Source of the DNA: Acidimicrobiia bacterium
Lineage (GTDB): Bacteria; Actinomycetota; Acidimicrobiia; Acidimicrobiales; Poriferisodalaceae
DNA length: 43,644 bases
Assembly (NCBI GenBank): GCA_022826045.1
Contig: JAJDVQ010000087.1
Coordinates: 1-43,644, forward strand
Reading direction: 5' to 3'
This document shows positions 2,292 to 43,644 of this stretch, piece by piece. The notes under the pieces were generated by a model that had not been told where the DNA came from, ran no database searches, and saw nothing but the letters and a program-made list of their open reading frames with translations. The translations under genes and the position numbers were made by a program. Each line of letters starts with the position of its first letter. Position 1 is the stretch's first letter.

Positions 2292-3125
2292 TCAGTCTCT
2301 CTGTCGCTGCAGCCTTGCCTGTTCTGCGATGTATTCGTCGATCCACTTGCCTTGATCGCCATTCAGCCATTTGTGTAGACGCCGACTTACCCCTGCGGCA
2401 GCTTCTTCTGGGCTGCTCGCTAGCCCCTCATACCACGCCACTTCTTGACGGACCTGATATCGCACGGACGGGTGGCAGAATACCTGGCTTTTCGCATCCA
2501 TCAGCATGATGTTGTTGAAATGCGATGCGAGATGCGGTTCAACCTCTTTGGGGACAGTCCATCGCGTGCTGTCAGTCCTTGTGGTGCGGTCAGTCTGCTC
2601 GTGGGAGGACAGGATGAGCAGGTCTCGGGCGCCAAGGGGGACATATATCTCCGCCGCGTTCGAGAAGCCGCGCAGAACCATGTCGGCCCCAGTCGCTCGC
2701 GGCACAAAATCCACCAGAGTGTCGCTGCATATGAGTCGAGGCTTGTGAAACTTCCAATGCAGCCACCGGCGTTGCAGCAGCATGGATAGCATTTCTCTGG
2801 ATTTCTGCAGAAGAGTGGTTGCCCACCAATCGCCGCAATCTGACTGCGGAATCGGCAAGCCACGCAACTCGGAGATTGTTTGCTCAGCATTTCTCAGTAA
2901 GTCAAGCAATCGTTCATTCTTGGCCAATGTCGGAACCAGGAAGCAGAGCGCAAGCGCTATCTCGTCATCGATATCGTAGTTCTCATGCAGGAACTTCTTC
3001 AGGACAGGTGCAGCTAATCCGGTGCTTCGCGTTTGCGCGTGGAGTAGCTGTGTGAGGGTCCTGGTCGGGTAGGGAGGGATCGTGCGCTCGCTTAAGAGCA
3101 CTCTGCCCCGTGTCCTCAAGCGCAT
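2292..3125 (-). CDS. DUF4238-like protein of unknown function
   Basis: A 277-residue soluble protein. The central part resembles DUF4238 proteins: a W-x-F...LICSDTLVDF segment (about 122-140) followed by AEIYVPLGARDLLILSS (about 158-174). The assignment is from memory of the family and is tentative. The usual N-terminal HxVPxxYLRxFS-type motif is not in this frame; a CHHVTLERFS-like string lies just upstream in another frame, which suggests an N-terminal frameshift. The frame also stays open past the stop. It sits between two hipBA modules, in an island typical of defence and toxin genes. Confidence 0.5.
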   Translation of the reverse strand: MRLRTRGRVLLSERTIPPYPTRTLTQLLHAQTRSTGLAAPVLKKFLHENYDIDDEIALALCFLVPTLAKNERLLDLLRNAEQTISELRGLPIPQSDCGDWWATTLLQKSREMLSMLLQRRWLHWKFHKPRLICSDTLVDFVPRATGADMVLRGFSNAAEIYVPLGARDLLILSSHEQTDRTTRTDSTRWTVPKEVEPHLASHFNNIMLMDAKSQVFCHPSVRYQVRQEVAWYEGLASSPEEAAAGVSRRLHKWLNGDQGKWIDEYIAEQARLQRQRD

Positions 3126-3311
3126 GCCGACCTTCGACGCTGAAGCGTTCGAGTGTTACGTGGTGACATTGTTCACGACCATGGTGCTGGTGTTTGTGAT
3201 ACTGGGCCTCTGAGGCGAACTGACTGATTGCCTTCTCGTTCGTGAATGCCAACGAGGCGGAGCCGCTAGAATGTATGTCATGCCTTCCATTTAGATGGCT
3301 GGCCCAGAAGG

Positions 3312-3323
3312 ATGACATGTCAT
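3312..3323. promoter_or_regulatory. 12-bp palindrome over the start of the second hipB
   Basis: ATGACATGTCAT is a perfect palindrome that reaches into the ATG at 3322. A partial copy (ATGTCATG) lies about 40 bases upstream after a TAGAAT box (3267-3272). A paired operator for autorepression is plausible. An AGAAGG ribosome-binding site overlaps its left side at 3306-3311, so binding here could also mask translation. Confidence 0.35.
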
Positions 3324-3591
3324 GCATTCGGCGAATTTTCGTACAGGGCTCACCAACAGCACGCGCTTAGGGCGCGCAGTCAGGCAGATACGGAAAGAAC
3401 AGGGTCTGACCCAAGCGCAAGTGGCTGAAGCATCTGGCGTGTCGCGTCTGTGCGTCCGCGACCTCGAAACCGCCAACCGGTCCGTAGGAAGCGCCAACAT
3501 CATCCGCATACTCAAGGCGCTCGAACACGAACTGGTCATCCGTCCCCGGCACACCCCGAATATGGCAGACCGAGCCGGAGACAACCGATGA
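3322..3591 (+). CDS. hipB: HipB-like XRE-family antitoxin, second copy
   Basis: An 89-residue protein with an XRE helix-turn-helix at about residues 16-70 (LTQAQVAEASGVSRLCVRDLE, in outline) and a short C-terminal tail. The ATG has an AGAAGG site ten bases upstream. Its stop overlaps the start of the following hipA remnant by four bases. It is less related to the first HipB than expected for a recent duplication. With its partner damaged, it may now act only as an orphan repressor. Confidence 0.82.
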   Translation: MHSANFRTGLTNSTRLGRAVRQIRKEQGLTQAQVAEASGVSRLCVRDLETANRSVGSANIIRILKALEHELVIRPRHTPNMADRAGDNR

Positions 3592-4854
3592 ACCACGATC
3601 TCACGGTGACACTGCATGACAGGATCGTCGGACACATCACGAAAACCGGTCCCCAGAGTGCCGTCATGCGCTACGAGCCGTCCCACTTGGAGCAATACGA
3701 TCCGACTCCGCTGTCACTCGCCTTTCCGCTGGACGACAGTCTCCGCAGAGACGGCACGACCAAGCGGGCTGACGCTCCTGACAGACACTGAAGTCGAGAA
3801 AGGCCTGACAGCTCTTCGCCGTGGCGCTGATGCATGGGCGGCTCAGATGGGCAGACCGCTGTCGTTCAGCCTCTCAGGAGCGCAAACAAAAATCGCCCTT
3901 CGTCAGATGCCCGACGGACAATGGGCGCTCCTTTACGGCAACGAACCGTCAACGCACATCTTCAAGATCTCAAGCCCGGGATGGGACGGCAACGACATCA
4001 TCGAGCACATCTGCATGCAAGCCATCGGAAAGGCAGGTCTTGCCGCGGCGATGACCGAGATCGTGGAGTTCGGATCAGAACGTGCCATCTGCATCACTCG
4101 GTTCGACCGAGAAACCGATCCCGACGGACACCTGTACCGCTGCCATCAAGAAGATCTGTGTCAAGCAGCCAATGTGCCGTCGCACAACAGACAACAGTGG
4201 GCAGGCGGTCCGTCACCTGAGCGAATCGCCCGCATCCTGCGGGAAGAATCCGGTGACGCTGCTCATTGCGTCCGAGCTTTCAGAGATGCGCTGATCGCCA
4301 ACTGGGTCCTGCTCGCAGGGGACGCGCACGCCAAGAACTACAGCCTGCGCCTCGACGGAAGCGACGTGGCGCTGTGCCCGCTGTACGACGTATGCAGCGA
4401 AGCACCATGGAAACTCGGCAAGCACATCCAGATGGCCATGAAATGCGGCGACTCCTTCAACGCTGACCACATGGGCCGTCAAGAATGGGAAGCATGCGCC
4501 GACGCTCTGCGCCTTTCGAGGCAGGAGACTATGGCACGAGTCGAAGAACTGTCCGAATCCGTCCCCAAAGCAGTCTTGGATGCAGCAGCATCCTTGCCCG
4601 CGCATCTTCAGGATACCGAGATCGTCGAAAAGCTATACGACGTGATGTCCGGCCGGACCTCTGCATGCCAAGACACGCTCACGCGACCCGCACCGACATC
4701 AACCCACGATGAGACATGGGAACAAGCCAAAGCTCTTCTGTCCCAAAAGACAGAAACCTCAAAGACGCAAGCACGCTGCGGACACATCGGAGTGCGAACA
4801 GGTCGGCCATGCATCCGCCCGCCCCACAACGACAACAACCACAGATACGCATAA
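3588..4854 (+). pseudogene. hipA: HipA-family kinase, disrupted by internal deletion and frameshift
   Basis: The natural start, ATG 3588 coupled to hipB, gives a HipA N-terminus (VTLHDRIVGHI, PLSLAFPLDD) that ends at 3791. The rest is in the +1 frame from about 3765 to 4854 and carries SLSGAQTKIAL, HQEDLCQ, the catalytic LAGDAHAKN and YDVCS. Compared with the intact HipA, roughly 60 residues around NLLPD...GAV are missing at the switch, so this is a deletion, not only a sequencing slip. The C-terminus keeps the same C-x-H-x8-C-x4-H-x4-H tail. The C-terminal frame could still be translated from an internal start. Confidence 0.75.
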
Positions 4855-5001
4855 CGGCACAGTCCAACTTGATGCGCCGGCGGAGCAATCAGGCGAGGCG
4901 GACGCTGCGGACTGTCGGAAAGTTTGTGCAACCGGCGTGATCTGAGGGTCCGCAGCCGGGGGCTGGGGGCCGGGGAGGATCATGTCTGCGGCTGATCATG
5001 A

Positions 5002-5505
5002 CAGGCCGGCTGTGCCGGCGAGACGATCCGCCGCCGGCTGCTGGCTGACTGCGAGGTGCACACGCTGCTGCGGCTGCCGACGGGAATCTTCTACGCCCAG
5101 GGCGTGAAAGCCAACGTGTTGTTCTTCTGCCGCCGTGAGGGCGCCGAGGACCCGTGGACCCGGGAGCTGTGGGTGTACGACCTGCGCACCAACAAGCACT
5201 TCACGCTCAAGCAGAATCCGCTCGCCAGAGCCGATCTGGATGACTTCGTCGCCTGCTACCGACCCGACGCCCGCCACAAGCGCACCGAATCCGAACGGTT
5301 CAAGCGCTACGCCTACGACGAGCTAATCGCCCGCGACAAGGCCAGCCTCGACCTGTTCTGGCTGAGAGACGAGAGCCTCGAAGACGCCGACAACCTGCCG
5401 CCCCCCGACGTCCTTGCCGCCGAGATAGCAGAAGACCTCGAAGACGCCCTCGCAGAGATCCAAGCCCTCGCCGACAGCCTCGCCGCGTCAGCCAAGCCTG
5501 AGTGA
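5002..5505 (+). pseudogene. 3' remnant of a type I restriction methylase subunit (HsdM-like)
   Basis: The frame opens after a stop at 4999-5001 and encodes the C-terminal part of an N6-adenine methylase: AGETIRRRLLADCEVHTLLRLP, then YAQGVKANVLFF, LWVYDLRTN, the SERFK region and LPPPDVLA near the end. The catalytic NPPF motif and the SAM-binding domain, normally several hundred residues upstream, are missing, and no hsdS or hsdR is present. Homology begins abruptly near 5010, so the gene was cut by a deletion. A GTG at 5056 could start a 149-residue product, but it could not methylate DNA. Confidence 0.7.
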
Positions 5506-5566
5506 GCGACCTGGCCGGTCTCTTCCTCAGCCGAGACGGTAGAGATCGAGCCCGCAGTCCAGTTCT

Positions 5567-5632
5567 AGTTTGCAATTAGCTGGTTCACAATCTGCAGTTG
5601 GACGGTAACAAATCTGCAATCAGCCGCTAACA
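5567..5632. repeat. Three tandem 22-bp repeats upstream of the DUF4143 ATPase gene
   Basis: Units at 5567-5588, 5589-5610 and 5611-5632 are built around TTTGCA/TCTGCA. Units two and three match at 17 of 22 positions, the first is more diverged. The array ends six bases before the -10 box and covers the -35 region, which is where an operator array would be. Part of it (CGGTAACAAATCTGCAA) resembles the hipB upstream repeat (CGGTTACATTCTGCAAA). Confidence 0.65.
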
Positions 5633-5643
5633 AGCCATACAAT
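5614..5643 (+). promoter_or_regulatory. Probable leaderless promoter of the DUF4143 ATPase gene
   Basis: TACAAT (5638-5643) is followed by six bases and the ATG at 5650, the actinobacterial leaderless arrangement and the same -10 box and spacing as hipB. A weak -35 (CTGCAA or TGCAAT, 5614-5620) lies 17-18 bases upstream inside the last repeat unit. There is no ribosome-binding site. Confidence 0.55.
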
Positions 5644-5649
5644 TGGCCG

Positions 5650-7002
5650 ATGGCTTCATCGAAGCTGGTCGAACGGCTTGCAGCGCCGAGGTTGCGCGAG
5701 GCGCTGGCCGACTCGCCGGTCGTGGTGGTGCATGGCCCTCGTCAATGCGGCAAGACCACACTGGCCCAGATGGTGTGTGCTCCGAGTGAGCTCGCCCGAA
5801 GCGACCGCCGTGCACATGAATGGGGTGCCGGGCAGACGGCCGGATCGACGCACGCGTATGTGACGTTCGATGATCCTGTCGCGGCTGAGGCGGCTCGCGA
5901 CGATCCATTGGGGTTTGTCGACGGCCTGCCCCCCAATGTCGTGCTGGACGAAGTGCAACAGGTGCCGCAGCTCTACCCAGCCATCAAGCTGGCTGTGGAC
6001 CGGGACCGGCGTCCCGGGCGGTTCGTGCTGACTGGTTCGACCAATCTGCTGCTGCTGCCGTCATCGGCGGATTCGCTGGTCGGGCGCATGCAGATTGTCC
6101 GACTGCATCCATTCGCTCAGCGCGAGTTCGCCTCTGATGCGCACATCGATGACGACATGTCCCAGCACACCGATGCTGGCGCAGCGTCGCGGCCTGGCTT
6201 TGTGGACACTCTGTTCGGTTCCGGCTTCGGTACTGAACGGCGAGAACGCGAGGGCACCCGCCTCGCCGAACGGATCGCAGCAGGCGGCTATCCCGCAGCG
6301 TTGGACCGGCCCAGCGGCGCTCGCCGGTCCAACTGGTACAGCGACTACCTCGACGCCATCATCCAGCGCGACATCCCTGATGTGTCCACAGTGCGAGTGC
6401 CCGATGCGCTTCCTCGCCTTGCGGAGATGTGCGCAGCGCAGACCGGCGCACTGCTGAATGCGAGCAATCTCTCGCGGCTGCTGCAGCTCAGTCGGCCCAC
6501 CGTGACCGAGTACCTGTCGGTGCTCGAGCGCCTGTTCTTGGTGGAGCGTCTGCGACCTTGGCATTCCAACCGCCACAAACGGATCATCAAGACCCCGAAG
6601 CTGCACGTCGGCGACTCGGGTCTGGCGTGCGCCCTGCTCGGCGTCGGCGCCGCTGATCTCAACGGCGACCGCAAGCTCCTCGGCCAGCTCATGGAGACGT
6701 TCGTCTACGGCGAATTGCATCGCCAGGCCGGTGCCCATCCCGACGCGCACCAGTTCTTCCACTATCGCGACAAGGACGGCACAGAGGTCGACATCGTCAT
6801 CGAGCGAGGCAGCCGACGAGTGGCTGGCATCGAGGTGAAGGCTTCCGCAACTGTCACAGCGTCAGACTTCCGGGGCCTGCGGCGCCTCGCCACCGCCGCA
6901 GGCGACCGCTTCGTCGGCGGCGCAGTCGTCTACGACGGCGAGATGTGCGCCAGCTTCGGCGACCATCTCTGGGCTGTGCCCGTCAGCCGTCTGTGGAGGT
7001 AG
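5650..7002 (+). CDS. AAA-type ATPase with DUF4143 C-terminal domain
   Basis: 450 residues. Walker A is GPRQCGKTT (29-37), Walker B VVLDE (97-101), and a GSTN sensor-like motif lies at 129-132: the AAA_14 ATPase domain. The C-terminal half is the DUF4143 region, ending with an E-V-D...E-V-K arrangement (about 376-395) like the D...ExK core of PD-(D/E)xK nucleases. An insertion of about 60 residues follows the first domain (about 155-215). Members are scattered, frequently transferred, and lack a settled function; toxin or defence roles have been suggested. The gene stands alone behind a repeat array and converges on the moaD-like gene. Confidence 0.85.
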   Translation: MASSKLVERLAAPRLREALADSPVVVVHGPRQCGKTTLAQMVCAPSELARSDRRAHEWGAGQTAGSTHAYVTFDDPVAAEAARDDPLGFVDGLPPNVVLDEVQQVPQLYPAIKLAVDRDRRPGRFVLTGSTNLLLLPSSADSLVGRMQIVRLHPFAQREFASDAHIDDDMSQHTDAGAASRPGFVDTLFGSGFGTERREREGTRLAERIAAGGYPAALDRPSGARRSNWYSDYLDAIIQRDIPDVSTVRVPDALPRLAEMCAAQTGALLNASNLSRLLQLSRPTVTEYLSVLERLFLVERLRPWHSNRHKRIIKTPKLHVGDSGLACALLGVGAADLNGDRKLLGQLMETFVYGELHRQAGAHPDAHQFFHYRDKDGTEVDIVIERGSRRVAGIEVKASATVTASDFRGLRRLATAAGDRFVGGAVVYDGEMCASFGDHLWAVPVSRLWR

Positions 7003-40348: not shown

Positions 40349-41287
40349 CTATTGCACGAGTGCCGCGTTGTGGTGCAGTGTTTCGCGAGCCTCGGCGTAG
40401 CGCTCGGCGAGGCGCTGGCCCACCCGCCCGATCCGATCGATCATCGTCATGAGACGGTCGCGCGCCGCTTCCGCGATACCGGACAGCTCGGTCAGGCCGG
40501 GCAGGTTCCAGTCGCGCAGCACGACGGGCTGCAGGATCTGGTCGTGGTGGATGGCCAAGTCGTAGATCCCGGCTTCGGCGATGATGCGGGAGTGGGTGTC
40601 GAAATCGGTGATGCCCACCCCGGGCATCGCAAAGCTCTTGACTTGGTTGGCGATGGCGACCACCGCGCTGGAGGGGTCGATCTCGACAGCGGCACTCATC
40701 ACGTCGCGGTAGAAGAGGAAATGCAGGTTCTCATCGAAGGCGACCCGCCGCATGATGGCCTTGCCGGCGGGGTCGTCGATGTGGCGCCCGGTGTTGAAGT
40801 GCGCGATGCGGGTGGCCAATTCCTGCAGCGTCACGTAGGCAAGGCCTTCCAGCAGGCTCGGCGGCTGGGGCACTTGCCCGCACTGCACCTGCGCCATGCG
40901 CGCCCGCTCCAGTGCCACGGGGTCGAGGGCGCGGGTGACCGACAGGTAGTCGTAGATGACCCGGCCGTGCCGTCCCTCTTCCGCGGTCCAGCGGCGAACC
41001 CATTCGCCCCATGCGCCCTCACGGCCGAACAGCCGCTCGCTGTCACGGAAGTAGTACGGCAGGTTCTCCTCGGTGAGCACATTCACGAAGAGGGCGCTGC
41101 GAGCCTCGGGGGTGAGGTTGGCCTCCTCGGGTGACCATTCGTAGTCGGGCGCGAAGTCTTCGCCCCGGCTCCAGGGCACGAGCGCGTGGGGGTGCCATTC
41201 CTTGGTCTGCCGAAGATGGCGCGCGAGGAGTCGCTCAACCTCGGGCTCCAGATCGGCGAGCGTCCGGGCGTCAGCCTCTACCGGCAT
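40349..41287 (-). CDS. Acyl-ACP desaturase (ferritin-like di-iron)
   Basis: 312 residues from ATG 41287. The two-iron motifs of the FA_desaturase_2 family are EENLP (about 75-79), EEGRH (about 102-106), an LQELATR helix and DENLH (about 184-188). Soluble enzymes of this type place a double bond in acyl chains. The start is supported by a TAGGCT box at 41322-41317 and a GGTGAT site between it and the ATG; an in-frame ATG at 41359 would lie upstream of that promoter. It converges on rplQ. Confidence 0.87.
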   Translation of the reverse strand: MPVEADARTLADLEPEVERLLARHLRQTKEWHPHALVPWSRGEDFAPDYEWSPEEANLTPEARSALFVNVLTEENLPYYFRDSERLFGREGAWGEWVRRWTAEEGRHGRVIYDYLSVTRALDPVALERARMAQVQCGQVPQPPSLLEGLAYVTLQELATRIAHFNTGRHIDDPAGKAIMRRVAFDENLHFLFYRDVMSAAVEIDPSSAVVAIANQVKSFAMPGVGITDFDTHSRIIAEAGIYDLAIHHDQILQPVVLRDWNLPGLTELSGIAEAARDRLMTMIDRIGRVGQRLAERYAEARETLHHNAALVQ

Positions 41288-41316
41288 CGGGCATCGCCAA
41301 TCACCATGCGGGGCTG

Positions 41317-41322
41317 AGCCTA
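41317..41322 (-). promoter_or_regulatory. Candidate -10 box of the acyl-ACP desaturase gene
   Basis: TAGGCT on the minus strand, about 30 bases before the ATG at 41287. The -35 region is poor. The same hexamer serves as the -10 box at 21122. Confidence 0.35.
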
Positions 41323-41409
41323 ATGATGTCAGCCCACTGTTCAGGACGTGCTGAGCCATGAGGATCTCGCGCCGATGCCAACCGTCTGCCGCAATGGGCG
41401 ATCGCGGAG

Positions 41410-41745
41410 TCAGGAGCTGGTGCGCACGCCGAGGGCCCGTTCGAGGTTGACGAGGTACCCGGCGAACGCCTTGCGTCCTGTCACCGTGGCTTCGATCCAG
41501 GTGCGCGGCTTGGCACCGCGGAACTCCTTGGTCGTCTCCACGTAGTCAGCGTGCTCCAGCTTGCGCAGGTGAGTCGTCAGGTTGCCCGGCGTCAGGCCCA
41601 GCTGCTTCTGCACGAAGCCGTAGGCGAGCCGGTCCCGGTCATCCAGCGACACGAGCAACGACATGATCTGCAGCCGCGTCGGCTGGTGGATGATCTCGTC
41701 GAGGTCGATGGCACCGCCGTCGGGCACCCCGTTGGGATCTACCAT
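41410..41745 (-). CDS. Winged-helix transcriptional regulator
   Basis: 111 residues from ATG 41745: HQPTRLQIMSLLVSL, then a winged helix with FVQKQLGLTPGNLTTHLRKLEHADYVE, as in the HTH_34/ArsR-MarR-like one-component regulators that often pair with a membrane protein. No ligand-binding domain is present. It overlaps the membrane-protein gene by seven bases, and probably binds the palindrome in the shared promoter. Confidence 0.82.
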   Translation of the reverse strand: MVDPNGVPDGGAIDLDEIIHQPTRLQIMSLLVSLDDRDRLAYGFVQKQLGLTPGNLTTHLRKLEHADYVETTKEFRGAKPRTWIEATVTGRKAFAGYLVNLERALGVRTSS

Positions 41746-42371
41746 TCGCCGGTCCTGCGCACCCACATCACGATGGCCGCCAGCAGCGCGAGCATTACGA
41801 TTCCCGACACTGCCGGGGCGATGTCGTCGAACAGGTAGTGCGGGATGTAGAAGGCCATGGCCATGCCCACGCCGAAGACGGCGATCACCGTCCGGTGCAT
41901 GATGCCGAAGAGCACGTACCCGAGAGCGATGACCCCCATCAAGACGAAGGGGACCTTCTCTGCGCCGGCTTCGTTCCACAGGCCCGCTGCACCCGGCAGC
42001 AGCCCGGCCGCCACGATGACCGTCATCCAGTAGGCGAACACGCGGATCCCGGCGCTCTGCATGGCGAGGCCCGGCGAGACCGCGCGCCCAGCGCGATAGC
42101 CGATGGTCATGCTCCCGATGACGCCGAGGAACGTGATGATCGCCCACAGCGGCCCCGGATACCACGGATTTTGATCGGCGAAGTCGGTCGCAAACGTGGA
42201 CACTGCGTACTGGGCGAGGTAGGCGATCGAGATGATGCCCGCCCACATCAGCAAGATCGCTGTGCTCCCGGCGGTGTACAGAGCGCTGCGAGCTCCATGC
42301 ATGGTGCTGAGAACGGTTTCCCAGCTCTCGTCGGGTTTCAGAGCTGTCGATTCGCCGGTTTCTGTCGACAT
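41739..42371 (-). CDS. Integral membrane protein paired with the winged-helix regulator
   Basis: 210 residues from ATG 42371, five bases after a perfect AGGAGG. Six hydrophobic segments (about 35-58, 75-92, 108-125, 138-158, 162-180, 185-203). I recognise no named family. The arrangement membrane protein plus small winged-helix regulator recurs in actinobacteria, often for envelope stress or export functions; the role here is unknown. Confidence 0.78.
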   Translation of the reverse strand: MSTETGESTALKPDESWETVLSTMHGARSALYTAGSTAILLMWAGIISIAYLAQYAVSTFATDFADQNPWYPGPLWAIITFLGVIGSMTIGYRAGRAVSPGLAMQSAGIRVFAYWMTVIVAAGLLPGAAGLWNEAGAEKVPFVLMGVIALGYVLFGIMHRTVIAVFGVGMAMAFYIPHYLFDDIAPAVSGIVMLALLAAIVMWVRRTGEW

Positions 42372-42399
42372 CACAACCTCCTAGGTCCGCGATGCAAAC

Positions 42400-42482: not shown

Positions 42483-43514
42483 CTAGGCGTGGGCGTCGAG
42501 TGCAGCGCTGTAGTTGGCTGAGGCGAACTCCCAGTTGATGAGGTGCTCGACGAACGCATCCACGTAGGCAGCCCGGGCGTTCTGGTAGTCGAGGTAGTAG
42601 GCGTGCTCCCACACGTCGATCACCAGCAGCGCTCTCAGGCCGTCTGTCAGGGGCGTCTGGGCATCATCGGTCTGGATGATGCGCAGCGAGTTCCCTCCGT
42701 CTCCGCCCGAACCGTCGAACACGAGCCAGCCCCAGCCCGAAGCGAAATTCCCGACCGCACCAGCGGCGCTTTGGCCCTCCTGCGCCGCGGTGTCGAAGAG
42801 CTCGTCCCACAAGTCGCCATCAGGCGCCGCTCTGTTCGTGAGCAGATCCGGTCCGAGTGTCGCGGCGAGGTTCCGGCGCACGGCGTGACCCTTGTACCGG
42901 TGCACGCGTCCCTCGCGTTGCTCGAGGTCGACGGGGTTGGTCGGCAGGTTCCAGTGGACGACTGCGTGGCACCACAGATGGAAGTCGAGGCCCTCCTGCC
43001 CGACCGACGTGGAGGTGAGCACGAACGGCCAAAACGGGGAATTGAACGCTTGTGACACAGTGCCGATGCGTTCTTCGCCGCTCTCGTCGTCGAGTTTCTG
43101 ACTGCCGAAGGCGACGGCGAATCTTGTGCGCAGCCGATGCTCCTCCAGCATGAACTCTTGGCCATTTGTGGCTCTCTGCGGTATGTCGATACGGAACGAT
43201 GTCGTGCGAAGACTCAGTGCCTCTGCGACCTTGTACCCGAGGTCGTCGGCCGCCGCCGCGCGCTGATCGTCGTCGCTGAGACCCAGGTGACCGAGCCAGT
43301 CGCGCAGCATGTGGCAGTGCTCGTCGAGCACCGCTTGAAGATCGCCGTCGATCGAATGGCGCACGACATCGCGCCAGTACCGTTCGACACCGTCTTCGCT
43401 GTCGGCATCCTCGGATCTGCCGCCCACGATGACGCCGGTGATCTCTGGTGCGTTGAATAAACGCCGGAACGCCTCGGCAATCCACGCCGCGTTCGCCACC
43501 GACCACTTAGAGCG
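42483..43514 (-). CDS. Chimeric frame: SF2 helicase C-terminal part fused to the C-terminal half of Fe/Mn superoxide dismutase
   Basis: The frame is open from 43514 (a stop at 43517-43515 lies in the 135-bp repeat); the first possible start is GTG 43499, giving 338 residues. Residues 1 to about 245 are a SNF2/DEAD-like helicase C-terminal region: motif V TSTSVGQEGLDFH (162-174) and motif VI EQREGRVHRYKGH (193-205). From about 247 the protein is SOD: GNFASGWGWLVF, TPLTDG, and the iron/manganese ligands Asp295 and His299 in IDVWEHAYYLDYQNAR. The helicase N-terminal ATPase motifs and the SOD N-terminal half with its two His ligands are absent, so neither activity is expected. Real fusion or assembly chimera cannot be separated here. 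Confidence 0.8.
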   Translation of the reverse strand, partial: RSKWSVANAAWIAEAFRRLFNAPEITGVIVGGRSEDADSEDGVERYWRDVVRHSIDGDLQAVLDEHCHMLRDWLGHLGLSDDDQRAAAADDLGYKVAEALSLRTTSFRIDIPQRATNGQEFMLEEHRLRTRFAVAFGSQKLDDESGEERIGTVSQAFNSPFWPFVLTSTSVGQEGLDFHLWCHAVVHWNLPTNPVDLEQREGRVHRYKGHAVRRNLAATLGPDLLTNRAAPDGDLWDELFDTAAQEGQSAAGAVGNFASGWGWLVFDGSGGDGGNSLRIIQTDDAQTPLTDGLRALLVIDVWEHAYYLDYQNARAAYVDAFVEHLINWEFASANYSAALDAHA

Positions 43515-43643
43515 TTAGCGGATTGATAAAACGACTGTATGCAATCGCATCGTCTGTCGTGTCGATGCTGCAGGTCAGAGACCCATCCAGAGGCGATTCC
43601 ACGGCTCGAAATCGTTCAGAGCCGATCTATCCGCGCGGCCTCT
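43509..43643. repeat. 135-bp direct repeat, right copy
   Basis: Same as 3-137. Here it interrupts the helicase frame: coding similarity runs up to within a few bases of the repeat, and an in-frame stop lies at 43515-43517. The window ends one base past it. Confidence 0.9.
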
Positions 43644-43644
43644 T

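Follow-up and report, generated by a model that had tools for sequence, protein, structure and literature searches.

A stop-free helicase-superoxide dismutase frame as the probable scar of recombination beside a decaying Zac islet

The window, a stretch of 43,644 bases that makes up the whole of contig C28 of genome G000, contains an open frame of 338 aa on the minus strand (42483-43499, zero internal stops) in which helicase motifs lead directly into the C-terminal domain of an Fe/Mn superoxide dismutase (SOD). We consider it probable, at a likelihood of roughly 70%, that this frame is a non-functional scar, left when two versions of the sod region, one of them with a decaying Zac islet, underwent illegitimate recombination. 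An earlier note on this DNA had described a single frame running without a stop from helicase motifs into the SOD C-terminal domain, and Pfam confirmed this layout, with a Helicase_C match over residues 143-202 (E = 1.3e-7) and a Sod_Fe_C match over residues 245-328 (E = 1.5e-25) that covers profile positions 24-101 of 102. The parts themselves are ordinary.

The switch from one part to the other, earlier placed near 42760, was mapped close by, to a join of 4 bases at 42764-42767 (CGGC on the plus strand) that are common to the sod and zacC sides. DNA comparison showed that the sod matches in relatives end at 42767 or 42768 and that the zacC matches begin at 42764 (G001) or, in some relatives, at 42752, which is a few bases into the sod side. 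A 126-base query spanning the join matched 12 of 61 genomes, including G000 itself, and the join was crossed in G000 only. Open frames of 338 codons are uncommon by chance (182 of 5000 random frames). Since each half comes from a coding frame that was open beforehand, an open join would need only the right phase, which should occur about one time in three.

The sod part of the frame is the 3′ half of a native sod gene (42483-42767, minus strand; 93 codons plus the stop codon), which contains the DVWEHAYY motif and gives DNA matches of 74-94% in 10 relatives of the same genus (G001 to G010). Downstream of sod on the same strand lie a gene for a membrane-protein-like product of 211 aa without a Pfam match (41739-42374) and a fatty acid desaturase gene (40349-41359; FA_desaturase_2 by Pfam). 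In nine of the 10 relatives (G002 to G010), sod and these neighbor genes stand in the same order: six of them (G003, G005, G007, G008, G009, and G010) give a single unbroken alignment from the desaturase gene to 42767 or 42768, the stretch from desaturase to sod is covered by two abutting alignments in G004, and no match was found in G002 and G006 for the gene between the desaturase gene and sod. Judged by this gene order, the SOD half is in its native place. The DNA to the left of the sod half that keeps this order also includes, from our reading of the translations, rpoA and the L17 gene. The sod genes of the relatives extend beyond the join point into a 5′ half, whereas the sod sequence in the window stops there.

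The earlier note had also supposed that, if the frame was real, the 5′ half of a SOD gene had been lost or moved in this genome. This proved not to be supported, as contig C26 of G000 carries a separate, complete sod of 206 aa with both SOD domains, including the only Sod_Fe_N match in the genome, and loss of the SOD gene was rejected on these grounds. An Fe/Mn SOD combines Sod_Fe_N with Sod_Fe_C; the frame, the last 93 codons of which are the sod 3′ half, differs in missing the N-terminal domain. Between the two sod 3′ halves of G000, identity is 86.6% and dS is 0.43. The half in the window is nearest to G003, G008, and G009 (dS of 0.18 to 0.20), and the half on C26 has a dS of 0.13 to G001, although its identity is much the same to G001, G005, and G007 (92.7-93.3%). 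(The sod of G006, its motif unmatched, was left out of the dS and dN comparisons of sod.) The low identity and the different nearest relatives argue that the two halves are different alleles and not a fresh duplication.

The other part of the frame is an internal piece of zacC, cut at both ends (42764-43507, minus strand), which a tblastn search with the intact ZacC of G002 placed at about residues 767-1017 of 1107, in the region of helicase motifs V-VI. The frame thus contains neither zacC residues 1-766 nor residues 1018-1107, and the earlier statement that both halves lack essential N-terminal parts is borne out. The operon is intact in G002, where proteins of 412, 611, and 1107 aa were recognized by PADLOC as ZacA, ZacB, and ZacC at 355, 468, and 1014 bits, respectively; the name Zac rests on PADLOC only (PADLOC-DB ZacABC, a predicted anti-phage family, with ZacC as PDLC03830), and literature searches on Zac found nothing relevant, one of them being swamped by unrelated words and thus a weak test. 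Tail to tail with the intact zacC, G002 carries the gene for a DUF6119 protein of 540 aa (L027, 8405-10027). In contrast to that of G002, the operon of G000 is ruined: zacA (residues 73-410) and zacB (residues 1-336) are truncated, and zacC, which lacks residues 1-520 or so, is cut by a repeat and again at sod. Against a full length of about 1000-1100 aa, ZacC residues 767-1017 are present in the frame and residues 521-767 on C26. The earlier note had suggested looking for the missing N-terminal half of the helicase in the same genome; a HMMER search of G000 with the whole of ZacC found nothing besides the pieces on C28 and C26 and three other helicases that matched weakly, and residues 1-526 were not found. 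The zacC piece has 96.1% DNA identity to contig C36 of G001. The helicase piece may have drifted: its dN/dS between G000 and G001 is 0.30, compared with 0.04-0.14 in the other 20 pairs, although this ratio is based on 28 differences and is possibly no different from constraint.

On the side away from sod, the zacC piece is bounded by a copy of a dispersed repeat of ~137 bp with imperfect inverted ends (43508-43644, plus strand), which closes the contig. The start codon of the frame, at 43499, sits just within the zacC piece left by the repeat, and there is a stop codon upstream, on the repeat side. The left end of the contig (1-137) is another copy. Among 58 candidates in G000, 40 matches to this putatively MITE-like repeat were scored, at least 24 of them at contig ends. 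The ends of C26 and C28 share an identical repeat stretch over 138 bases, and zacC runs up to residue 767 on C26 and from residue 767 on C28 by tblastn (HMMER edges, 527-767 and 759-1018). In G001, which is without the repeat, the sequences that flank it on C26 and C28 are adjacent, and we therefore infer that the two contigs are the two sides of one repeat insertion and probably adjoin through the repeat, of which there are 40 or more copies. Compared with G001, C26 and C28 overlap by 8 bases, which could be read as a target duplication; this reading was rejected, because the letters and the other copies of the repeat show that the overlap is an alignment overrun; any target duplication would be short, possibly 2-4 bases at most.

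Beyond the repeat, C26 carries in order zacC, zacB (residues 1-336), zacA (residues 73-410), a complete gene for a DUF4143/AAA_14 ATPase of 413 aa (L025, 10189-11430; PADLOC candidate PDC-S01, 391 bits), which lies directly behind sod, and the complete sod. If C26 and C28 adjoin, the complete sod would lie ~5 kb from the fused frame, and an islet of about 5.3 kb would separate it from the displaced sod 3′ half, which points in the same direction. On contig C36 of G001, the tenth relative, the neighbor gene is followed by residues 464-1107 of zacC, which keeps its natural 3′ end, then by part of zacA, by a PDC-S01 gene that is broken, and finally by an intact sod, so that here the islet stands between neighbor gene and sod without any sod half. 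The islet pieces of G000 and G001 are 95.7-97.4% identical, compared with 90.4% in the flank, and in both genomes the last few codons of sod, where it meets the islet, are unlike those in the other relatives. This shared alteration of the sod end makes the two islets look like the same insertion, common to the genomes by descent or by transfer. In G006, a foreign sequence of 229 bases behind sod (L039, 10187-10415) is 72-76% identical to the islet DNA that separates the PDC-S01 gene from zacA.

An islet with a complete sod on one side and a codirectional sod 3′ half on the other has the layout left by integrating elements that restore the 3′ end of the gene they enter. The half sod could accordingly stem from the genome's own sod, its 3′ end having been duplicated in tandem long ago, when the islet entered, and having diverged since, and the altered final codons in G000 and G001 would agree with such an entry. 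We nevertheless regard this origin as quite unlikely. The two copies are 13.4% different, the half in the window is nearer to three other relatives than to its own neighbor, and G001 has the islet but no sod half. Moreover, no integrase was found among the islet proteins that were scanned, which were ZacA, ZacB, and ZacC of G002 and the DUF4143 ATPase.

The presence of two alleles is also what would be expected if DNA of two strains had been put together artificially, an assembler or a chimeric read having joined DNA of a strain with a plain sod to DNA of a strain with the Zac islet. The high-copy repeat in which the contig ends, and the absence of the same join from every relative, likewise speak for such an assembly chimera. 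Against it, a 4-base join is not a normal product of overlap-based assembly, and 4 shared bases should be far below the overlap that an assembler needs. Furthermore, the database cluster of the 338-aa protein (P0001) holds four member sequences and one contig, with a longest contig of 54,480 bases; as this exceeds 43,644 bases, it suggests that the protein also occurs in a different assembly, which may stem from the same sample. We therefore think a chimera rather unlikely. The earlier note had attributed the frame to recombination or misassembly rather than to a designed fusion, and of these the recombination product is favored, with misassembly made less likely by the short join and the longer contig.

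How recombination between two versions of the sod region could have produced the frame can be outlined as follows. DNA from a lineage in which, as in G001, the islet follows sod would have met a chromosome with the plain arrangement of neighbor gene and sod. One end would have recombined by homology, in or near sod, and the other end would have been fused by illegitimate joining at CGGC within sod, so that the islet came to lie between a complete sod and the displaced sod 3′ half; a repeat insertion would have cut zacC as well. The transfer could have run either way between the two lineages. Homology-facilitated illegitimate recombination, a process outlined in PMC3240628 that combines a homologous joint at one end with an illegitimate one at the other, appears to fit the join best. 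As in that process, one joint here has little homology, with 4 shared bases; at the other end lies allelic sod DNA, where exchange by homology may have taken place. The present case differs in that it is read from sequence comparison alone and has no clean donor tract.

For the second joint, the nearest relatives vary along the region without a clean breakpoint. The nearest relative switches several times between 40.4 and 42.8 kb, and no donor tract has a clean end at the join. Over 34-40 kb the nearest relative is G005, around 41.2-41.4 kb it is G009, with identity of up to 100%, and in the sod half G003, G008, and G009 are nearest. Near 10-13 kb, identity is 94% to G006 and up to 97% to G001. 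These changes along the contig suggest frequent recombination between lineages in the genus. Toward the complete sod on C26, identity to G001 has already dropped from 96.6% to 89% some 180 bases short of sod, still within the islet, and one recent transfer from a donor like G001 is therefore too simple an account.

No relative among those compared shared the whole layout, which agrees with the earlier remark that no natural family of this kind is known. Although 36 of the 61 genomes match the frame, both parts occur in one frame in G000 only, and among the 120 proteins listed of 4666, the window's own protein is the only one with both Pfam domains; a helicase-SOD family present in more than one lineage was thus not seen in the 61 genomes or the 120 listed proteins. 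A literature search for a helicase-SOD fusion found nothing relevant. Matches in G025, G019, and G032 that spanned both query parts were rejected, as their translations proved to be ordinary full-length SODs, and the same was true of the four translated spanning matches L073, L103, L109, and L124; this check covers the translated matches named, out of a larger set of matches that start somewhat before residue 245. Two proteins with 94% of the query covered (P0002 and P0112) are plain helicases, the C termini of which align weakly to the SOD half. Solved structures found by sequence (60 listed of 155) align with the SOD half and are either SODs or chains related to them.

That the frame encodes a functional helicase-SOD fusion protein seems to us barely credible. 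The 338-codon open frame speaks for it, but the catalytic N-terminal parts of both enzymes are absent, the frame starts at a repeat insertion, and no second protein with the two domains was found in the 61 genomes or among the 120 listed proteins. Since the frame has neither the N-terminal motor part of the helicase nor the N-terminal half of the SOD (which bears two metal-binding histidines), we predict that no useful protein is made from it, and we take it to be a pseudogene.

A seemingly new protein architecture can thus be the scar of a decaying defense islet. When lists of fusions are drawn from metagenome proteins, the same genome should be checked for complete copies of the partners and for repeats at the contig ends. 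For the genus, the comparison records a Zac islet behind sod that is common to two species, has an identity above that of its surroundings, and is decaying in both. As Zac and PDC-S01 genes lie directly behind sod in these two species (G000 and G001), it is conceivable, though we think it doubtful, that the sod 3′ end is a landing site for defense islets in the genus, delivered by sod-anchored recombination with in-frame scars as a by-product. Elsewhere in the window, in the stretch 3001-6000, a segment at about 4909-5038 recurs many times in G000, G001, G002, G004, and G006 and is probably another dispersed repeat.
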